DNA of 40,463 bases, from the NCBI GenBank assembly GCA_016282955.1, contig JAEELX010000054.1, forward strand, positions 1 to 40,463, read 5' to 3'. The notes beneath the pieces are model-generated. The model searched no databases. It was not told where the DNA came from and saw only the letters and a list, made by a program, of their open reading frames with translations. The translations under genes and the position numbers were made by a program. The first letter of the stretch is position 1, and each line of letters starts with the position of its first letter. Below, one piece after another: positions 1,623-31,029 of this stretch. Origin of the DNA: Paludibacteraceae bacterium. GTDB taxonomy: Bacteria > Bacteroidota > Bacteroidia > Bacteroidales > Paludibacteraceae.

Positions 1623-1642
1623 TTTTCTGCTATTTAACGCGA

Positions 1643-1673
1643 CAAAGATAAGATTTTTCAGTGATACGACAAA
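1643..1673 (-). promoter_or_regulatory. Bacteroidota-type promoter for trkA
   Basis: Minus strand reads TTTG-TCGTATCACTGAAAAATCT(19 nt)-TATCTTTG, an exact TTTG-N19-TAnnTTTG match, about 20 bp upstream of the trkA start. Confidence 0.7.
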
Positions 1674-1726
1674 AAAATAAGAATTGAAGATTATAGATGC
1701 ACTTATCAACGTGATAAATAGTTAGA

Positions 1727-2058
1727 ATGTTTATAAATATTAAAGTTCAACAAGACGAGATGAACTTTGACATTGCTTGTGATGAACATATCAAATATCG
1801 TCTAACGAAACTTGCCACACCAAAAACGAACGGCATGGTGGAAGTGGCAATTCTCACCATCAAAATAACCTTTCTAAATCGCACAAACTACTATAATAAG
1901 CAAGAAATCACCATCAATTTGCAACTTTCAATTACAATGATATAGACGGTAGGTTGGGTTGCTCAAAGAGTTAAAATGAATATACACTGCAAATATGTAT
2001 GAAGGGGTTGAACTGCAACCCAAACTTATTCTCAGAAAAACGCTGATTTTTGAAAAAA
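1727..2058 (+). pseudogene. Decayed transposase C-terminal remnant (IS481/DDE integrase-like)
   Basis: Peptide NFDIACDEHIKYRLTKLATPKTNGMVEVAILTIK resembles the IS481 'GI.HRLT.P.TP.TNGMVER.NGTIK' segment with the catalytic Glu. After stops/frameshifts, LLKELK*IYTANMYEGVELQPKLILRKTLIF resembles the family's C-terminal tail. Confidence 0.65.
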
Positions 2059-2116
2059 ATATCATATCTTTGCAACTGCAAAATGGTCATCAAAAACAGC
2101 AAAAAAAGTTTTTTAA

Positions 2117-2124
2117 TACCTTTG
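2117..2124 (+). promoter_or_regulatory. Candidate -7 element (TACCTTTG) upstream of the methyltransferase operon; a second candidate, TATCTTTG, at 2065-2072
   Basis: Both match TAnnTTTG; no convincing TTTG -33 element at 19 nt for either. Confidence 0.4.
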
Positions 2125-2157
2125 CTAAAGATTTATCTAAAATACCCTAAATGACAA

Positions 2158-3432
2158 ATGTTTACCACACAACACATAATCATTAATGGAGATAGTCGTA
2201 AAATGGACGAACTGCAAGACAAAAGCGTTCATCTAATTGTAACATCGCCACCATATTGGCAGTTAAAGGACTACGGCACCGATAATCAAATCGGCTTCAA
2301 TGACACTTACGAGCAGTACATCAATAATTTGAATTTGGTTTGGAAGGAGTGCTATCGTGTGTTACATGATGGTTGTCGTTTGTGTATAAATATTGGTGAC
2401 CAATTTGCTCGGTCTGTATATTATGGACGATACAAGGTGATTCCCATTCATTCGGAAATTATAAGATTTTGTGAAACTATTGGTTTTGATTTTATGGGGC
2501 AGATTATTTGGCAGAAAGCAACCACAATGAATACAACTGGAGGCGGTGCTGTAATGGGAAGTTTCCCATATCCTCGAAACGGCATTGTGAAACTTGATTT
2601 CGAGTATATTCTTATTTTCAAGAAACAAGGAACAGCTCCCAAACCGACCATTGAACAGAAAAAGCAGTCTGCAATGACAAATGAGGAATGGAATACTTAT
2701 TTTAGTGGTCATTGGTATTTCAATGGAGCAAAACAAGACAAACATTTAGCGATGTTTCCTGAAGAGTTGCCGAAACGCTTGATAAAAATGTTTTCATTTA
2801 CTCACGAAACGGTTTTAGACCCATTTATGGGAAGTGGAACGACAGCCGCCGTAGCAAAAACATTGGGACGTAATTCGGTAGGATATGAAATAAATCCCGA
2901 GTTTATTCCGTTAATAAAAAACAAAATAAGCACAAATAATTTATTGGAAACCTTCCACATCAAAGAATTTAGACAAAATATAAGCATTGACTTTGAAAAA
3001 GAAATCGCCCAATTGCCCTATTGTTTCACTGATGTCCATAAAACCGACAAAAAAATAGATGTCAAAAGACTACAATTTGGTTCTAAAATCGACAAAGACA
3101 GCAGCAGCGAACGCGCAGAAATGTTTAGCGTGAAGCAAGTTATTTCGCCAGAATTGATATTGCTAAACAATGGTCTAATTGTTAGACTGATAGGTATTAA
3201 GCAAAATCCACAAATAAACGGCAAGGCAACAGAATTTTTGCTTTCGAAATTTAAGGGCAAGAAAGTGTTTTTGAAATACGATAATATAAAATACGACATT
3301 GATAATCATCTGATGGTGTATATGTATCTAGAAAACAAGACTTTCATCAATGCCCACTTGCTCAAAAATAAATTGGCATTGGTTGATGAAAGCATTGATT
3401 ATAAGTATAAAACAAAATTTCTTAGTATATAG
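2158..3432 (+). CDS. Site-specific DNA methyltransferase, beta class, probably N4-cytosine, with a C-terminal SNase/OB-like extension
   Basis: Motif IV TSPPYW precedes motif I DPFMGSGTT; C-terminal GLIVRLIGIKQNP...GKKVFLKYDNIKYDIDNHLMVYMYLENKTFINAHLLKNKLALVDESIDYKYKTKF. Confidence 0.9.
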   Translation: MFTTQHIIINGDSRKMDELQDKSVHLIVTSPPYWQLKDYGTDNQIGFNDTYEQYINNLNLVWKECYRVLHDGCRLCINIGDQFARSVYYGRYKVIPIHSEIIRFCETIGFDFMGQIIWQKATTMNTTGGGAVMGSFPYPRNGIVKLDFEYILIFKKQGTAPKPTIEQKKQSAMTNEEWNTYFSGHWYFNGAKQDKHLAMFPEELPKRLIKMFSFTHETVLDPFMGSGTTAAVAKTLGRNSVGYEINPEFIPLIKNKISTNNLLETFHIKEFRQNISIDFEKEIAQLPYCFTDVHKTDKKIDVKRLQFGSKIDKDSSSERAEMFSVKQVISPELILLNNGLIVRLIGIKQNPQINGKATEFLLSKFKGKKVFLKYDNIKYDIDNHLMVYMYLENKTFINAHLLKNKLALVDESIDYKYKTKFLSI

Positions 3433-3434
3433 TT

Positions 3435-4082
3435 ATGGCAAAAGAATGGATATTGAATAGTGCGATGAATCGCTTTCAACTCAATTTCAAACGCAATGTT
3501 GGAGCTACATCTGAATCTATTCGAAAGTGTGCACCAAAATCGTTGGACGAGTGGAGAAACTATTACTACACCAATGTAAAATCAGAGACACATATAGAAG
3601 AATTAGGCAAGAAGTTATACGTCAAAATAACCGAAGTAATTCGATATGAGGTTCAAAATGTAACTGAACAAGACTGTATTGATTATATGAAACAGTTGGT
3701 TATAGATCGAACATACGATGGCTATACTACAGAAATTCAAACAATTTACGGTCAGCTTCAAATTCTGCTGGATGCAAAAATAGAACCTGCACCTGATGAA
3801 TGGGACAGATTGTTCAACGTGGATTTTTTCATAAAAGTGGGTAATACATATATTGGTCTGCAAATTAAGCCAATAAATAATAGTTTACAAATTCCAGAAA
3901 TACACAAAGAATACGCATTGCAAGCCAAGACGCACGAGAAATTCAAGAAACAATATGGAGGAAATGTATTCTATATCTATTCAGAAAAGGTAAACGGCAA
4001 AAAGGAAATTGCCAATAAAGAAGTTATCAAGGAGATTCGGAAAGAAATTGAAAGCTTGAAGAAAGTAATGATGAAAAAATAA
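3435..4082 (+). CDS. Type II restriction endonuclease, probable MjaI family (PF09568-like)
   Basis: Starts 2 nt after the methyltransferase stop; N-terminus MAKEWILNSAMNRFQLN..RNVG and VDFFIKVGNTYIGLQIKP, compatible with a PD-(D/E)xK variant (D...QxK). Family assignment is from memory. Confidence 0.65.
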   Translation: MAKEWILNSAMNRFQLNFKRNVGATSESIRKCAPKSLDEWRNYYYTNVKSETHIEELGKKLYVKITEVIRYEVQNVTEQDCIDYMKQLVIDRTYDGYTTEIQTIYGQLQILLDAKIEPAPDEWDRLFNVDFFIKVGNTYIGLQIKPINNSLQIPEIHKEYALQAKTHEKFKKQYGGNVFYIYSEKVNGKKEIANKEVIKEIRKEIESLKKVMMKK

Positions 4083-4087
4083 GTGAT

Positions 4088-5941
4088 ATGCAACAGACAA
4101 TAAACCCAGACAAGCAAACCGTTGAAAGTTGCTTGAAAAACAAGTCATATTATATTGATTTCTACCAAAGAGAATATGTTTGGTCAAAAGAAACTGTTGA
4201 AATTCTCTTACGAGATATTTTCTATGCTTTTGAGTTGTCTTACGAAGAATATAAGGATGCGGAATTATCTCAAGAAATATTGGAAAATTTCAATTGGTAT
4301 TATCTTAATATATTTATCACCAACAATATAAATGGTAAGGTATTTATCGTTGATGGTCAACAACGATTGTCAACACTCACACTAATAGCCACCAAATTAT
4401 ATCATCTAACAGAAAATGAATTACTGAAAAACACTTTGAAAGAATGCATTTATGGACAGGATAAATGGAAAGGCAATATATTTAGATTAGATCATGAAAA
4501 ACGGCATGTGGTAATGGAAAAAATCCTTAATGGAGATACTGAAACGCCAACATTGTTCAAAAATAAAACGGAAGAAACATTATGGTATCGCTATGCTGAC
4601 ATATCAAAATACATTGAAGACAAAGGTATGGATGCTAAACGATTAGACACATTCATTAATTATTTTCTTGAACGGCTTGTATTAGTTGAACTTACCATTA
4701 CAAAGGATGATACGCCAATGATCTTTGAGGTTATTAATGACAGAGGAGAAGCACTAAAACCTTTTGAAATTCTAAAAGGCAAACTTGTTGGCGCATTGGA
4801 TAAAAACGACACTGAAAAGTATTCTGATTTATGGGACGAAGCTATTTCTTGCCTTTTCAATATGGAAGACGATTTCTTCATAGACTATATTCGTTCAAGA
4901 TTTATTTTCAAACGAAATTCCAAAATTGAAACAGCAATTAACAACTCATATCATAGATATATTTTTGAGAATAATGAAATTGGACAGAATTTAGCTTTTA
5001 GAAAAACCGACAAGAAGCAAATAAATAATATCAAAGAGTTTATAGAGAATTATTTGATGTATTATAGTAAACTATATGCAAAAATCCGCAACAATGAGAT
5101 AAAAGATGAGTTTTTGTCATATTTAAGCAATATACATGATGTAAAAGGACAGTATGCAATTATACTATCTGCATGTGATATAAATGATGTTGAAGAGAAT
5201 AATAAAATTTGTACTATTGCATCGGAATATGACAGACTACTAATGTTATTGAGATTGAATGGCGTATATGATAGCAATACAATCCAAGAAATCTCTTTGA
5301 ACTTAAATGAGATTATAAAAGGTAAAAGCATCGACCAATACCAGTCTATTTTCAACGAAGTACTGAAAAAGGCTATCAGTGAACGTAAGAGCAAAGAAAA
5401 CGTCTCTACTTTGTTGGAATATTCTACATTCAAATCAATGGGGTATCACAATATAGAGAAACGAGCCTTACGGTATTTCCTTGCAAGAATTGAAAAATTC
5501 ATTTGTGATGGATTAAATCAAACTATGCAAGATAATGTTGAATACATATCAACCAAAACAGGATATAAAACAGGGTATCACATCGAACATATATTAAGCC
5601 ATAATGAGACAAATCGAAGATATTTTGATTCCGATGACGATTTCGAGATGTGTCGTAACCAATTGGGTGGGTTGTTACTGTTAAAGGATGCAGATAATAT
5701 AAGTTCAGGTAATGAAGAATATCATGATAAATTGAAAACATATAGTTCTGGACTTGTTTGGGCTCATACTTTGTGTGAAGATTATCACCATATCAATACC
5801 AATTTAGATACATTGAACAATAAGCTTTATGCAATATGTGGTCATAAAATTGAGCCAATTAAAATTTTTGACAAAGATGCTCTTGAACAAAGAAATCAAC
5901 TTCTTTATAGTATTGTGAAAATCATTTGGAAGATAGAATAA
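4088..5941 (+). CDS. DUF262 and DUF1524 (HNH-type) domain protein, GmrSD-like
   Basis: N-terminal FYQREYVW...VFIVDGQQRLSTLTLI (DUF262 DGQQR motif) and C-terminal GYHIEHILSHNETNRRYF...RNQLGGLLLL (DUF1524 HNH-like). Starts 5 nt after the restriction gene stop. Confidence 0.85.
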   Translation: MQQTINPDKQTVESCLKNKSYYIDFYQREYVWSKETVEILLRDIFYAFELSYEEYKDAELSQEILENFNWYYLNIFITNNINGKVFIVDGQQRLSTLTLIATKLYHLTENELLKNTLKECIYGQDKWKGNIFRLDHEKRHVVMEKILNGDTETPTLFKNKTEETLWYRYADISKYIEDKGMDAKRLDTFINYFLERLVLVELTITKDDTPMIFEVINDRGEALKPFEILKGKLVGALDKNDTEKYSDLWDEAISCLFNMEDDFFIDYIRSRFIFKRNSKIETAINNSYHRYIFENNEIGQNLAFRKTDKKQINNIKEFIENYLMYYSKLYAKIRNNEIKDEFLSYLSNIHDVKGQYAIILSACDINDVEENNKICTIASEYDRLLMLLRLNGVYDSNTIQEISLNLNEIIKGKSIDQYQSIFNEVLKKAISERKSKENVSTLLEYSTFKSMGYHNIEKRALRYFLARIEKFICDGLNQTMQDNVEYISTKTGYKTGYHIEHILSHNETNRRYFDSDDDFEMCRNQLGGLLLLKDADNISSGNEEYHDKLKTYSSGLVWAHTLCEDYHHINTNLDTLNNKLYAICGHKIEPIKIFDKDALEQRNQLLYSIVKIIWKIE

Positions 5942-6127
5942 AAAACTTTTTCTCGACTCATTCCTACCAACAGCAGTGCAACTTCTATTTATCAGGTTAT
6001 AAACGATAATGGGTGGTTTCATACTTATGTTCGAGACTGAGGACGATACGCTTACCAACACTTTCAAAGCCAACTATGGTAGCTTTTTTAGATTATCTTA
6101 CAAAGCATTTCATATCTAAGTCAAAAA

Positions 6128-7990
6128 TTACAAATCAAAAAAATGACGCACCGATTGGGTGATTCCTTCGACATCTAAACCCAACAGATGATACAATTCA
6201 TCGGGGCTTCCGTGTTCGACAAATTGATTTTTTATGCCCAACCGCAACACCGAAATGGGCTCATGATGGTCGGCAAAATACTCCACCACTGCCGAACCAA
6301 AGCCACCTTCAACCATCCCGTCTTCAATCGTAATAATTTTTGGGAACTTCTTTCGTATTTCTTCCAACAAGTTCTCGTCCATCGGTTTGAGCCACCGCAT
6401 ATTATAATGTGCTATGTTTGGCAAGGTTTCCAACGCCTTTTCAACGTTGTTTCCGATGGCTCCGAGACTCAAAATCGCCCCTTTTTCGCCCTCACGCAAA
6501 CAAATTCCTTTGCCGTACTCCACCTTGGGCAACTGTTTTTCGCAATAATGTGCCATGCCTCGTGGGTAACGAATGGCAAGCGGATGCTCAAAAGTGCGGG
6601 CAAAATGCAGTATTTCCTGCAAATCTTCGGCATACATCGGGGCAAAAATACGGATGTTCGGAATCGGTCGCAAGTACGCCAAATCCAACAAACCTTGGTG
6701 AGTCGCACCGTCATTGCCCACGATTCCCGCTCTATCAATGCAAATCGTTACAGGCAAATCCAACAAAGCCACATCGTGAACGATATTGTCGTAGGAGCGT
6801 TGTAAAAACGTGGAATAGATGTTGCAAAACGGCTTCAAACCTTCTTTTGCCAAGCCTCCGCTGAACGTGATGGCGTGCCCTTCGGCTATCCCGACATCAA
6901 AAACACGGTTTGGGAACTGCTCGATCGCTTTGTCCATACCGCAACCAGAAGGCATCGCAGGCGTTATTCCCACCACTTTTTCATCCGCTTGTAGCAACTC
7001 CACGAGCGTGTCGCCAAAAATTTCTTGCCAAAGAGCGACTTTTTTGCTGGCTTTGCGTTCGCCTGTTTCGAGGTTAAATTCGCCAGGTGCATGCCAGATG
7101 GTGGGCTCTTTTTCAGCGGGAGCATAGCCTTTGCCTTTCTGTGTGATGAGGTGCAAGACCTTCGGACCCGTGTAGTTTTTGATTTCTGCCAAAATTTTCA
7201 CCAATTTGGTTACGTCATGCCCATCGGTTGGACCAAAATAGCGGATGCTCAGACCCTGAAAAATGTTGCTCGGTTGCTTGGAAAGGATAGATTTGAGGTA
7301 GTTATTAAAACGCAACACTTGATTTTTTTTCTGCTCCGAGATAAGACCCAATTTGTTCAACGTAGAATAGACAATCCAACGGAATTTATTGTATTTTTTG
7401 CTCGTTGACAACTCCAACAAATACTGCGAAAAGCCACCTTGCAAGGCGTTGATTGCCATATTGTTGTCGTTGAGGATAATGAGCATATTATTCTTGTCCA
7501 TCGAAGCATTATTCAAGCCCTCAAACGCCAAGCCACCCGTCATCGCACCATCGCCAATGATAGCGACCGTGTGCTGCGAAGAGTGCTGTAAGTTGTGGGC
7601 TATATCCATTCCTAACGCCACGCTAATGCTGTTGCTCGCATGTCCAGCCACAAACGCATCGTGCTCGCTTTCGGTCGGTGTAGGAAACGGTGCCAAGCCT
7701 TTGAACTGTCGGTTAGTATGGAACTTCTCCCGCCTACCCGTTAGAATCTTGTGGGCATACGCCTGATGTCCCACGTCCCAAACCAACTTATCCTCGGGCG
7801 AATCATAGACGTAATGCAAAGCCACCGTCAGTTCAATCGCACCCAAACTGCTTGCCAAGTGTCCCGGATTATGACTCAATTCTTGCAAAATAAAGTCCCG
7901 CAACTCCGCACACACCTGTGGCAAAGCCTCAACGGGCAGTTTCTTTAAGTCATTCGGACTGTCAATATGTTCGATGTACTGATAGGTCAT
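6128..7990 (-). CDS. dxs: 1-deoxy-D-xylulose-5-phosphate synthase
   Basis: NPGHLASSLGAIELTVALHYVYDSPEDKLVWDVGHQAYAHKILTGRR, GDGAMTGGLAFEGLNNA; full length. Confidence 0.97.
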   Translation of the reverse strand: MTYQYIEHIDSPNDLKKLPVEALPQVCAELRDFILQELSHNPGHLASSLGAIELTVALHYVYDSPEDKLVWDVGHQAYAHKILTGRREKFHTNRQFKGLAPFPTPTESEHDAFVAGHASNSISVALGMDIAHNLQHSSQHTVAIIGDGAMTGGLAFEGLNNASMDKNNMLIILNDNNMAINALQGGFSQYLLELSTSKKYNKFRWIVYSTLNKLGLISEQKKNQVLRFNNYLKSILSKQPSNIFQGLSIRYFGPTDGHDVTKLVKILAEIKNYTGPKVLHLITQKGKGYAPAEKEPTIWHAPGEFNLETGERKASKKVALWQEIFGDTLVELLQADEKVVGITPAMPSGCGMDKAIEQFPNRVFDVGIAEGHAITFSGGLAKEGLKPFCNIYSTFLQRSYDNIVHDVALLDLPVTICIDRAGIVGNDGATHQGLLDLAYLRPIPNIRIFAPMYAEDLQEILHFARTFEHPLAIRYPRGMAHYCEKQLPKVEYGKGICLREGEKGAILSLGAIGNNVEKALETLPNIAHYNMRWLKPMDENLLEEIRKKFPKIITIEDGMVEGGFGSAVVEYFADHHEPISVLRLGIKNQFVEHGSPDELYHLLGLDVEGITQSVRHFFDL

Positions 7991-26541: not shown

Positions 26542-27759
26542 TTATTTACGTGTGACATTTAACGTTACTGTTTTCCCACCACCTTTAAGCTCAAGGGTGC
26601 GACTTTGTGCATTAGGACTACCATTGGGACCCGCTCCAACACATGTAATGGTTACGATATAGCGACCTTTCCCCCCTGAATTTGGGCTAGCAGAAAATAG
26701 ACCTGATATTGCTACCCCGCTAATTGTCCACGAATCCACATTAGAGATAAATTCAAATGTCTGCGTTCCACCACTATGCGGGAAGGTAAAGTCAGTGCTT
26801 TGTGTATATTCAAACTGTGTATAACGATCTTGATTAACCGTGAGAATAAATGTGCTATCCTTCCCCGCAATCGTAATTTGCCCTGTACGCGAATTAGTAG
26901 AACTGGGATTTTCTTGTGCAGTGATGACCAATTCTATGTCTCCTGCAATACCACTTTCTTGGTCAACCGAAAGCCATTCTTTATCCGCTTCAGCGACCGT
27001 TGCCGTCCAATTTACACGTGCACTGAACTTAAACGTTTGTTCGGACTGTACACAACGATAGGAAAGTGTAGTTTCATCTTCGTACTTGAATTCATCTTTA
27101 TTTTCCTGTATAACTTGAATCACAAACGAACTATTGCCACTCTGGACGATTATCGTGCCTGTACGGTCGGTCGATTGCAGGTTTTCTTCCACTTTGATGA
27201 TCAATTTAACCTGACCTTTTACTCCTGACATATCAAGTTTTATCCATTCGTATGTTTCCTCATCTATGCTTGCTGTCCACTCTACGTTCGCATAAAACGA
27301 ATAGGACGTATCCTGCTTACGACTGTCCAAATAGATTTTGATGGTTCCTTCTTCATCACCTTCCAAAATGAAGTCCTCTGCCTTTTGTTTTACGGTAACA
27401 ACGACAGACGTATCGCCCGCATACAACTTAATGCGACCGTATCGGATGTTTTGCTCCTCATTTTTTGTGATACTGAAGTGTATCTCGTGTGTGCCAGGCT
27501 TACCTTGCGTTTGCGAAATGGTCAGCCAAGAAGTCGCCTGTTCTTCCACTTCTGCTACCCACGAAAAATTGGATTCAAACACAAGGGAAGATGTAATCGC
27601 TTCATAACTGAACGTAAGGGTTGTATCCATCTTAAAATCAACTTTGAGTAGCGTCCCTCTTGTGCCAGCAGATGGCATCTCATATTCAATTTTTTCACAC
27701 GCTATGAATAACGACAACGTTATGAGCGAAAGAAAAATAATTCTGATACATCTTTTCAT
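26542..27759 (-). CDS. BACON-type domain lipoprotein, tandem copy 1
   Basis: Lipobox LFIACEKIEYEMP; repeated Ig-like units (FSYEAITSSLVFESNFSWVAEVEEQATSWLTISQTQGKPGTHEIHFSITKNEE...RYGRIKLYAGDTSVVVTVKQ). Confidence 0.82.
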   Translation of the reverse strand: MKRCIRIIFLSLITLSLFIACEKIEYEMPSAGTRGTLLKVDFKMDTTLTFSYEAITSSLVFESNFSWVAEVEEQATSWLTISQTQGKPGTHEIHFSITKNEEQNIRYGRIKLYAGDTSVVVTVKQKAEDFILEGDEEGTIKIYLDSRKQDTSYSFYANVEWTASIDEETYEWIKLDMSGVKGQVKLIIKVEENLQSTDRTGTIIVQSGNSSFVIQVIQENKDEFKYEDETTLSYRCVQSEQTFKFSARVNWTATVAEADKEWLSVDQESGIAGDIELVITAQENPSSTNSRTGQITIAGKDSTFILTVNQDRYTQFEYTQSTDFTFPHSGGTQTFEFISNVDSWTISGVAISGLFSASPNSGGKGRYIVTITCVGAGPNGSPNAQSRTLELKGGGKTVTLNVTRK

Positions 27760-27854
27760 ATGACCAATTTATTTAGTTATTTTTAGGTTTTTATTCTTTA
27801 TCCTTGTATGCAATTTATGCAGTAATGCTGAATCATTCAATCTTAAACTATTGT

Positions 27855-27965
27855 TATTCAATAAATTAAAATCCATTTTACACCGCATTGGTTGCCCCAA
27901 AAAACAATTTATAGCTCCTGTAAAAAAGCACACAACGTGCAAAATTACCTCAAAAAGATGAAAAA
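27855..27965. repeat. Duplicated promoter/leader block, copy A (pairs with 29424-29534)
   Basis: 111 nt aligned by eye with 2 mismatches (cacc/catc and acaacg/acaatg). Confidence 0.9.
27940..27947 (-). promoter_or_regulatory. Candidate -7 element TAATTTTG for BACON copy 1 (TTTT at the -33 position, N19)
   Basis: Minus strand matches TAnnTTTG; same position in the conserved block of all three copies. Confidence 0.55.
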
Positions 27966-28100
27966 TAAAAATTTTATTCAACTATGGCATTTTTTGCGGA
28001 TAAAAAAAAGTTGCACATGCTCTGCACAACTTTTTCCAACACCGAACAAACGATTATTTTAACTATCAAATAAAACCAGTTTTTTGCAACCCGATAAACG

Positions 28101-29327
28101 TTAACCAGTGGTACCTCGTCTACAGTTAAACTGTCTTGTTTGTCCGCCACCTCGCAGGTAAAGGACGCGACCTACTCCCATCCTCCCATACCGATCATCC
28201 CCGGCTTCACAACTAATAGTTATGGTACATGAACCATATGTGCCCTTATTTGGCGTAACGGAAAATGGCGAACTGACTTCCGCTGTCCACTCATCTACAT
28301 TAGAGAAAAATTCAAATGTCTGCGTTCCACCACTAAACGGGAAACTAAACTCGGTGACAGATGATGTAAATGTAAACGCAGGATAAGCATCTTGTGTAAC
28401 ATTAAGGATAAAGGTGCTATCCTCTCCCGTAATCGTAATTTGCCCCATACGTGCAACGAAATTTAGGTTTTCTTCTGCGGTGACTTTCAATTCTATGCCT
28501 CCAGCAGTACCACTTTCTTGGTCAACCGAAATCCATGCTGCATCCTCTTCCGAGAGCGTTACCGTCCAATCTACACGTGCATTGAAACTAAACGTTTTTT
28601 CTGACTTCGAATAAGGGAAGGCAAGTGTCGTTTGAGCATTATTGTAGTCAAATTCATCTTCTACTTTTGCCTGTATGACTTGAATCTCAAACGAATGATT
28701 GCTACTCAGGACGGTTATCGTGCCTGTACGTTCCGCTTGTTTATTTTTTTCCACGCTGATGGTCAGTTTCGTCTCGTCTTTGATTCCCGAATCCTCCGTG
28801 TGCAGCCACTCTTCTGCGGCCTCATTCACGATTGCCGTCCACTCTACGTTCGCATAAAACGTATAGGAGGTGTCCTGTTTCTTACCGTCCAAATAGATGG
28901 TAGCCGATTTGATATTGCCCTCTTCATCGCGTTCCAAAATGAAGTCCCCTGGATTTTGTTTTATGGTGATAACAATTGACGTATCGCCCATATACAACGT
29001 AATGCGGCCATATCGGGTGTCTCGCTCATCATTTTGGGTGAGGCTGAAAGATACATCGTGTGTGCCAGGCTTCCCGTTCAGTTGCGAAAACTTCAACCAA
29101 GGACTCGCCTGTTCATCCAGTTCTGCCACCCACGTATAATTGGACTTAAACGCGAGGGAAGACGTGTTTTCCTCATAACTGAACGCAAAAGTTGTATCCT
29201 TCGTAAAATCGATGGAGAGTCGTGCACCACCAGAGATAGTGGGCATATCATATTGCACTTTTTCACACGCTATAAACAACGGCAACGTCATGAACGAAAG
29301 AAAAATAATTCGGATAATTTGTTTCAT
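28101..29327 (-). CDS. BACON-type domain lipoprotein, tandem copy 2
   Basis: MKQIIRIIFLSFMTLPLFIACEKVQYDMP; same repeat architecture as copies 1 and 3; start taken at MKQ instead of MCRMKQ. Confidence 0.82.
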   Translation of the reverse strand: MKQIIRIIFLSFMTLPLFIACEKVQYDMPTISGGARLSIDFTKDTTFAFSYEENTSSLAFKSNYTWVAELDEQASPWLKFSQLNGKPGTHDVSFSLTQNDERDTRYGRITLYMGDTSIVITIKQNPGDFILERDEEGNIKSATIYLDGKKQDTSYTFYANVEWTAIVNEAAEEWLHTEDSGIKDETKLTISVEKNKQAERTGTITVLSSNHSFEIQVIQAKVEDEFDYNNAQTTLAFPYSKSEKTFSFNARVDWTVTLSEEDAAWISVDQESGTAGGIELKVTAEENLNFVARMGQITITGEDSTFILNVTQDAYPAFTFTSSVTEFSFPFSGGTQTFEFFSNVDEWTAEVSSPFSVTPNKGTYGSCTITISCEAGDDRYGRMGVGRVLYLRGGGQTRQFNCRRGTTG

Positions 29328-29423
29328 ACGACACAATTTACTTAGTTATTGTTAGGTTTGTATTCATTCTTTAATTTTTAGTATGCAACTTTATGCAGTA
29401 ATGTTAAAAAATTAAATTATTGC

Positions 29424-29534
29424 TATTCAATAAATTAAAATCCATTTTACATCGCATTGGTTGCCCCAAAAAACAATTTATAGCTCCTGTAAAAAAGCAC
29501 ACAATGTGCAAAATTACCTCAAAAAGATGAAAAA
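29424..29534. repeat. Duplicated promoter/leader block, copy B
   Basis: See 27855-27965; 109/111 identical by eye. Confidence 0.9.
29509..29516 (-). promoter_or_regulatory. Candidate -7 element TAATTTTG for BACON copy 2
   Basis: Same block position as at 27940-27947. Confidence 0.55.
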
Positions 29535-29618
29535 ACAAAAATTATCCGCATTTTTGGGCGTTTTTGCGAAAAAAAGTTGCATATATGATGCACAACTTTT
29601 GGAACTATGAACGTTTAA

Positions 29619-30860
29619 TTACTCGCTTGCTGAGGTTCGTACACAGTCGAATGTTATGGATTGTCCGCCACCTCTCAGACGAAGGGTGCGTGCTTCCCCT
29701 CCTTGTTCACCCGCTGCTTGATCGCCTGCTGGACAACTAATGGTTAGGGTATGGGGACCACCTTTCCCCCCTGATTTTGGGGTAACCACAAACGGCGGCT
29801 CATCGGCAATTTCCCACGTATCCACATAAGCGGTAAAAGTGAAGGTATACTCCCCACCCGTTGCAAAGGGGAATGAATATTTAATGAGTTTTGATTGATA
29901 TTCAAACGCAGGATGATATATTTGTGTGATATTAACGATAAATGTGCAGTCCCGCCCTGTAATCGAAACTTTTCCTATACGCTGAGAAAAATCCAGATTT
30001 TTTACTACGGTCATGCTTAATTCTATGTTGTCTCCGGCACTACCACTTGCTGGCTCAACCGAAATCCATGCCGCATCTGCTTCAGTAAGTGTGGCTGTCC
30101 AATTTACATGTGCATTGAAATTCAACTTTTTTGGTGACTGATCGTCATAAGCAAAGAAAAAAAACGTTAGATCCCTGTTATACGTAAATTCTTCACCTCC
30201 TTGTTCCTGTATGATGTTAATATCAAACGTATTATTGGCACTCTGGACGGTTACCTTGCCTGTACGTTCCGTTGTTTGCCTATTTTTTTCCACTTTGATG
30301 AGCAGTTGTGTCTTTTCTTTCAGTCCCGAAGCCTCGGTGTGTATCCATTCTTGTGCCTCCTCATTCACGGTCGCCGTCCACTCTACGTTCGCATAAAAAG
30401 AATAGGAGGTGTCCTGTTTGTAGGCATCCAAATGGAGGGTAGGCGTCTTGATGTTGCCCTCTTCGTCGCGTTCAAAAATGAAGTCAGCTGCACTTTGTTT
30501 TACGGTGATAACAAAGGAAGAATCCCCTGCATACAAGGTAATGTGCCCAACTCGGGTGTCTTGCTCCTCATTTTTGGTGACGTTGAAGGTTATCTTGGCT
30601 TCACCCGGTTTACCGTTCATTTGCGAAACAGTCAACCACGAAGTCGCCTGTTCATCCACTTCGGCTATCCACGAGAAATTGGACTTAAAGGCAACGGAAG
30701 ACGTGTTTTCTTCCAAACTGAACTCAAAGGTAGTCTCCGTCGAAAAATCAAAGATGAGTTGCTTTGAACCCGTTGGAAGTTCGTATTGAATTTTTTCACA
30801 CGCTACAAAAAACACCAACGTTATGAATGAAAGAAAAATAATTCGGATAATTTGTTTCAT
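29619..30860 (-). CDS. BACON-type domain lipoprotein, tandem copy 3
   Basis: MKQIIRIIFLSFITLVFFVACEKIQYELP; SLEENTSSVAFKSNFSWIAEVDEQATSWLTVSQMNGKPGEAKITFNVTKNEEQDTRVGHITLYAGDSSFVITVKQS. Confidence 0.82.
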   Translation of the reverse strand: MKQIIRIIFLSFITLVFFVACEKIQYELPTGSKQLIFDFSTETTFEFSLEENTSSVAFKSNFSWIAEVDEQATSWLTVSQMNGKPGEAKITFNVTKNEEQDTRVGHITLYAGDSSFVITVKQSAADFIFERDEEGNIKTPTLHLDAYKQDTSYSFYANVEWTATVNEEAQEWIHTEASGLKEKTQLLIKVEKNRQTTERTGKVTVQSANNTFDINIIQEQGGEEFTYNRDLTFFFFAYDDQSPKKLNFNAHVNWTATLTEADAAWISVEPASGSAGDNIELSMTVVKNLDFSQRIGKVSITGRDCTFIVNITQIYHPAFEYQSKLIKYSFPFATGGEYTFTFTAYVDTWEIADEPPFVVTPKSGGKGGPHTLTISCPAGDQAAGEQGGEARTLRLRGGGQSITFDCVRTSASE

Positions 30861-31029
30861 ACGACACAATTTACTTAGTTATTGTTAGGTTTTTATTCAT
30901 TCTTTTTCCCTGTGTGCAATTTATGCAGTGATATTAAAAACTTAAATTATTGTTATTCAATAAATTAAAATTATTTTTACGCCTCTTTTGCTGCTCAAAA
31001 TACGTTCCTGCATAATAGCACACATCGTG

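Follow-up and report, generated by a model that had tools for sequence, protein, structure and literature searches.

A GmrSD-family nuclease gene joined to an MjaI-type restriction-modification pair: a probable two-module defence cassette in a Paludibacteraceae genome

A short insertion in the genome of a Paludibacteraceae bacterium carries a type II restriction-modification (RM) pair of the MjaI family followed directly by a gene for a GmrSD-family nuclease, and is best read as a horizontally acquired defence cassette in which two independent modules have been joined. We put the probability of this reading, which takes the pair itself to be an ordinary and widespread type II pair of the MjaI family, at about 0.75. 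The DNA analysed (the window) is a stretch of 40,463 nucleotides from a metagenome-assembled genome (G000) of 1.53 Mb that is about 91% complete. The three genes lie head to tail on the + strand: gene 1 (M, 2158-3432) encodes a methyltransferase of 424 aa, gene 2 (R, 3435-4082) an endonuclease of 215 aa and gene 3 (D, 4088-5941) the nuclease, of 617 aa. A reading made from the letters of the window without database searches (the sequence-only reading) had described three tight same-strand genes with gaps of 2 nt between M and R and 5 nt between R and D, and these coordinates hold exactly. We infer co-transcription, D probably sharing a transcript with M and R, and with only 5 nt between them D is likely to be translationally coupled to R.

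Type I RM and BREX already offer established examples of layering (PMC4619093, PMC11411939, PMC8565348). GmrSD-family proteins are co-located with type I RM, as is RloF in Campylobacter (PMC4619093); TgvAB, inside a type I RM cluster on VPI-2 of V. cholerae, protects against modified phages (PMC11411939), and BrxU does the same within BREX (PMC8565348). What is new here is a type II MjaI pair as the partner of a GmrSD-family layer, in an isolated join, the earlier examples found being type I RM and BREX. The ancestry of the modules shows that layers of this sort arise when independent units are joined.

Insertion site

The cassette sits in a low-GC segment of 4.5 kb (1623..6127, without strand) between trkA (288-1622, - strand) and dxs (6128-7990, - strand). 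Its genes have a GC content of 31-36%, against 44-47% on both flanks. In all 11 congeners examined trkA and dxs abut or overlap, their aligned ends lying 3-46 nt apart, which constitutes an empty site; because the two genes abut there, the segment is read as an insertion of 4.5 kb. A chimaeric assembly is unlikely, since a single contig has the insert with dxs on one side and trkA on the other, the two halves of the congeners' gene pair. A search of the insert borders for transposon ends or duplicated target sites gave only a 7-nt chance match, and the left flank has no second copy elsewhere in G000.

Two features lie 5' of M. An ORF of 72 aa (1727-1945) contains a TPKTNGMVE stretch that recalls IS481-type transposases; it has no Pfam match, and may be what is left of the element with which the cassette arrived. 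The sequence TATCTTTG (2065-2072) fits what we take to be the Bacteroidetes -7 promoter consensus, TAnnTTTG.

The MjaI-family pair

M and R had been proposed as an MjaI-family type II RM pair and D as a GmrSD-like protein. Profile searches bear out both assignments, with PF01555, PF09568, PF03235 and PF07510 all matching above their gathering cut-offs, at levels that chance would not give. R (3435..4082, + strand) matches PF09568 (RE_MjaI) with an E-value of 7.7e-49 and 166.1 bits against a cut-off of 22.7, and the PADLOC model REase_II at 1.5e-25. Two short stretches, V129 D130 F131 and Q143 I144 K145 P146, are invariant in alignment A1, and D130...Q143-x-K145 is likely to be the active site, as a plausible variant of PD-(D/E)xK. 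The nearest named relatives of R are mostly from Bacteroidales; viral contigs and plasmids gave no match to R as a single-sequence query, and an alignment query against viral contigs found one remote contig.

M (2158..3432, + strand) is a beta-class DNA methyltransferase. It matches PF01555 (N6_N4_Mtase) with an E-value of 2.5e-46 and 158.9 bits, the PADLOC MTase_II model PDLC03259 over its full length (E 6.9e-172) and the structure 2zie in the PDB (E 2.6e-55). The catalytic motif SPPYW (residues 30-34; 2245..2259, + strand) precedes DPFMGSGTT, which is the beta-class order; both motifs are conserved among relatives, SPPYW at 99% or more in 82 aligned sequences. SPPY-type motifs are those of N4-cytosine methyltransferases, and by its motifs M is probably one of these. 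With an endonuclease over the cut-off and an adjacent methyltransferase that carries the catalytic motifs, the pair belongs to MjaI-family type II RM, and it shows the M-R order of 100 of 107 loci of this family. The characterised CTAG methyltransferases, M.MjaI included, have 303-364 aa (PMC5867850), whereas M has 424 aa and ends in an additional domain. Scarcity of CTAG was considered as a sign of specificity and dropped as uninformative: the window has a ratio of observed to expected sites of 0.13, and the ratio is equally low, at 0.05, in congener loci, whose genomes yielded no full-length M homologue.

An SNase-fold tail on the methyltransferase

The last ~105 residues of M (about 318-424; 3109..3429, + strand) form an SNase-fold domain that the earlier reading had overlooked. 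Its match to PF00565 (SNase; E 0.0015, 19.4 bits) is below the cut-off of 21 bits. Because a sequence search of PDB chains with the tail gave no match, a fold comparison was needed to assign it. An AlphaFold model built from an alignment of 54 relatives (A2) has a pLDDT of 86, with values above 90 for most of residues 19-125, and Foldseek matches this model to staphylococcal nuclease with an E-value of 4e-6, a probability of 1.00 and a TM-score of about 0.7. By eye, the metal-binding and catalytic side chains of the nuclease have been lost (a lysine, for example, replaces the aspartate of the RLxGID-like motif), and for this reason the tail is probably a non-catalytic domain that binds DNA or protein.

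Judged by a length of 400 aa or more, 91 of 100 M proteins carry the tail, which is a conserved and general feature of the MjaI-linked RM family across several phyla. A literature search for a description of an SNase-methyltransferase found none. Candidate roles include target recognition and contact with the endonuclease, among others, none of which was found described. The tail is a by-product of this analysis and may interest specialists more than the cassette does.

The GmrSD-family nuclease

D (4088..5941, + strand) consists of a DUF262 NTPase domain, a helical linker and a DUF1524 HNH domain. The first domain matches PF03235 (GmrSD_N) over residues 17-233 (4136..4786, + strand) with an E-value of 1.3e-22 and 81.3 bits against a cut-off of 33.2, and includes the DGQQR motif at residues 89-93 (4352..4366, + strand). 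The second matches PF07510 (GmrSD_C) over residues 448-567 (5429..5788, + strand) with an E-value of 1.1e-9 and 38.8 bits against a cut-off of 23, and includes H501 (5588-5590), N524 and N537. In A3, an alignment of ten sequences with D among them, Q27 R28, D89-R93, F213xxxN217, E500 H501, N524 and N537 are all invariant. The PADLOC models that D matches are GmrSD-like (Orf5, HEC-06, SspE). Orf5 and HEC-06 are among the best of them, at ~89-90 bits over most of D; HEC-06 is described inside Hma clusters (PMC11411939), whereas there is no Hma cluster at the window.

How close is D to enzymes that have been characterised? Against solved structures, D as modelled by AlphaFold (mean pLDDT 82) has a single significant whole-chain match, to DndI (9jfl; E 6e-13, probability 1.00, TM-score 0.54). 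DndI, from the IscS-DndBCDE-DndI system of Salmonella, likewise carries DUF262 and DUF1524 on one chain of ~600 aa; it restricts DNA that has no phosphorothioate, and self DNA that bears the mark is released (PMC11662687). Its neighbours are dnd genes, whereas those of D are a type II RM pair, and DndC (TIGR03183) was found neither in G000, at 91% completeness, nor in six genomes with relatives of D. With BrxU and GmrSD, D has in common the domains and the QR, DGQQR, FxxxN and HNH residues, and with BrxU also the company of another restriction-type system, which for BrxU is BREX (PMC8565348) and not a type II pair. BrxU is not among the fold matches listed for D. TgvAB and RloF are DUF262 proteins embedded in RM operons for which complementary layering has been proposed (PMC11411939, PMC4619093), but there the RM is of type I; TgvAB moreover is two proteins where D is one, and the gene after D is dxs, so that no tgvA-tgvB pair is formed. 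DNA that carries modified cytosines is cut by GmrSD, BrxU and TgvAB (PMC4619093, PMC8565348, PMC11411939). It is possible that D cuts modified phage DNA; its response may be directed towards modified or towards unmarked targets.

Recurrence and ancestry

Within the order, 38 of 393 genomes carry RE_MjaI. A genome-wide scan gave 305 relatives of R, of which 80 loci were readable, and with others added the R loci come to 107 distinct ones. The 100 loci already mentioned, which span several phyla, have M upstream of R on the same strand, 68 of them with a gap of at most 25 nt. The third gene shows no such regularity. Since phmmer with D is blind to divergent DUF262 proteins, a regular expression and a home-made HMM were added, and among the 83 loci with room downstream an intact DUF262 gene adjoins R in two: the window and L108, also from Paludibacteraceae, where it lies 123 nt downstream of R. 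The protein at L108 belongs to a different subfamily from D and is not detected by phmmer with D at 1e-3. At a further locus (L125, on the same contig as L046) a broken DUF262 gene and then a HEPN (MAE_28990) gene stand between M and R (5897-7670). Random placement, with DUF262 density taken from 39 genomes, would give ~0.09 cases among the 83 loci. The two observed, or three with the broken copy, exceed this, and MjaI pairs may thus have a weak functional preference for DUF262 neighbours, a point against the joined-modules reading; without the window, which prompted the question, the excess has a P of ~0.09 and is not significant.

A conserved three-gene M-R-D system was rejected on this survey, with two of 83 loci and unrelated subfamilies. 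The suggestion of a recurring triad, or of D as a third subunit, is accordingly not supported, the closest relative of D also being without an RM partner; by the refuting condition that the sequence-only reading had set, the DUF262 gene does not regularly neighbour the pair. Among 61 other congeners M has a match in two, of which only G420 has a full-length homologue (66% identity). The R of G420 is from another branch than that of the window, and the gene order there is an XRE-like regulator (by eye), M, a 109-aa gene, R, a C5-methyltransferase, a GHKL ATPase and Vsr, with no DUF262 gene. Neighbours at other R loci include an AAA_15 (OLD-type) ATPase, putAbiC (L080), an AAA protein that weakly matches Mrr_cat and housekeeping genes, of which GatB (L111) and NIF3 (L081) occupy the slot downstream of R.

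The two parts of the cassette have different relatives at the DNA level. Positions 2166-4063 of the window share 76% identity with L075, a locus with M and R but not D, and positions 4087-5942 share 75% with L184, a locus with D but neither M nor R, placing the join at about 4064-4087. D is read as independently acquired because the DNA similarity splits at the boundary between M-R and D, between two relatives. At the protein level too the nearest relative of D is that of L184 (80% identical), among pst-type phosphate transport genes and beside a Fic gene; no restriction or methyltransferase gene is its operon partner. The relative in L185 (60%) lies directly 3' of another DUF262 gene, and those in L186-L188 (35-39%) are lone genes or lie within mixed islands. 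Among the relatives in A3 at 23-32%, four are in type I RM operons (L189, L190, L191, L193); these calls rest on Pfam for HsdM, HsdS and HsdR in L189 and for HsdM in L190, and were otherwise made by eye.

Proposed working and alternatives

M would methylate a short site, probably to N4-methylcytosine, and R would cut the same site when it is unmethylated. D would be a self-sufficient single-chain enzyme of the GmrSD/DndI type and not an RM subunit. Its DUF262 domain would bind and hydrolyse NTP according to the modification state of the DNA, and in this way gate the DUF1524 HNH nuclease. Protection would then probably be complementary, R acting on unmodified DNA and D on DNA that escapes recognition by R. 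Most economically, D would be a nuclease that senses modification autonomously, as a complement to the pair.

Could D instead read the mark that M leaves? In an integrated three-part system D would sense M's methyl mark, and either spare M-marked self DNA or be licensed by it. The whole-chain fold match of D is to a nuclease that senses a self mark (PMC11662687), no DndC was found in this 91%-complete genome, so that another mark would be needed, and the genes are just 2 and 5 nt apart. However, a relative 80% identical to D has no methyltransferase as operon partner, nearly all M-R loci are without D, and M-R and D are of separate DNA ancestry, so such a system is very improbable. By analogy with phosphorothioate for DndI, the methyl mark of M could be the self-signal of D, for which we see hardly any chance; the cassette would then be a type II pair onto which a methylation-sensing, NTP-dependent second restriction arm had been grafted. 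Selection may nonetheless have acted on the combination of M, R and D, given the likely coupling of D to R, and this would count against two modules that are simply joined.

Two further explanations give D a different relation to the pair. As a guard or abortive-infection back-up it would kill or stall the cell once RM is blocked or lost, and thereby stabilise the cassette. Abortive or toxin-type neighbours at other MjaI loci (putAbiC and HEPN) fit this idea, as does the recurrence of DUF262 proteins in RM operons (PMC4619093), but BrxU showed no toxicity, not even on over-expression (PMC8565348), the cassette has no antitoxin-like partner, and relatives of D occur without RM; we consider this role quite improbable. 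D might also be a passive hitchhiker, functionally unrelated to the pair, that landed downstream of it in a shared insertion spot. That unrelated genes such as GatB and NIF3 fill the slot downstream of R elsewhere, and that the DUF262 excess loses significance once the window is excluded, would suit a hitchhiker, whereas the reading frame of D, all its catalytic motifs and the 5-nt spacing are intact, which leaves this explanation unlikely. The joined-modules reading, with D as a second and complementary layer, is the one that we prefer.

Other observations

The space between M and R varies within the family. In about a fifth of the loci it holds a small gene of 99-123 aa that looks winged-helix-like by eye (L037:8721-9020, L104:7674-8000, L148:6105-6431 and L198:7314-7643 are examples; one was tested with Pfam and had no match). 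Of 100 M-R gaps, 20 measure 201-400 nt, and the small gene is possibly an RM regulator. Some loci have in the same position a gene of 217-232 aa that looks GIY-YIG-like by eye (L038:8161-8814, L152:7346-7999, L052:2006-2704), without a Pfam match for that of L038. In L078 and L079 a second methyltransferase gene lies 9 nt downstream of R, so that methyltransferases flank the endonuclease on both sides, and one locus (G105:C84:6111-7212) has a tandem pair of different MjaI-type endonuclease genes. Elsewhere in the window, at 26542-30869, three similar genes stand in a row; they encode lipoprotein-like products of 405-416 aa in which the eye makes out BACON-like repeats, and are apparently tandem paralogues.
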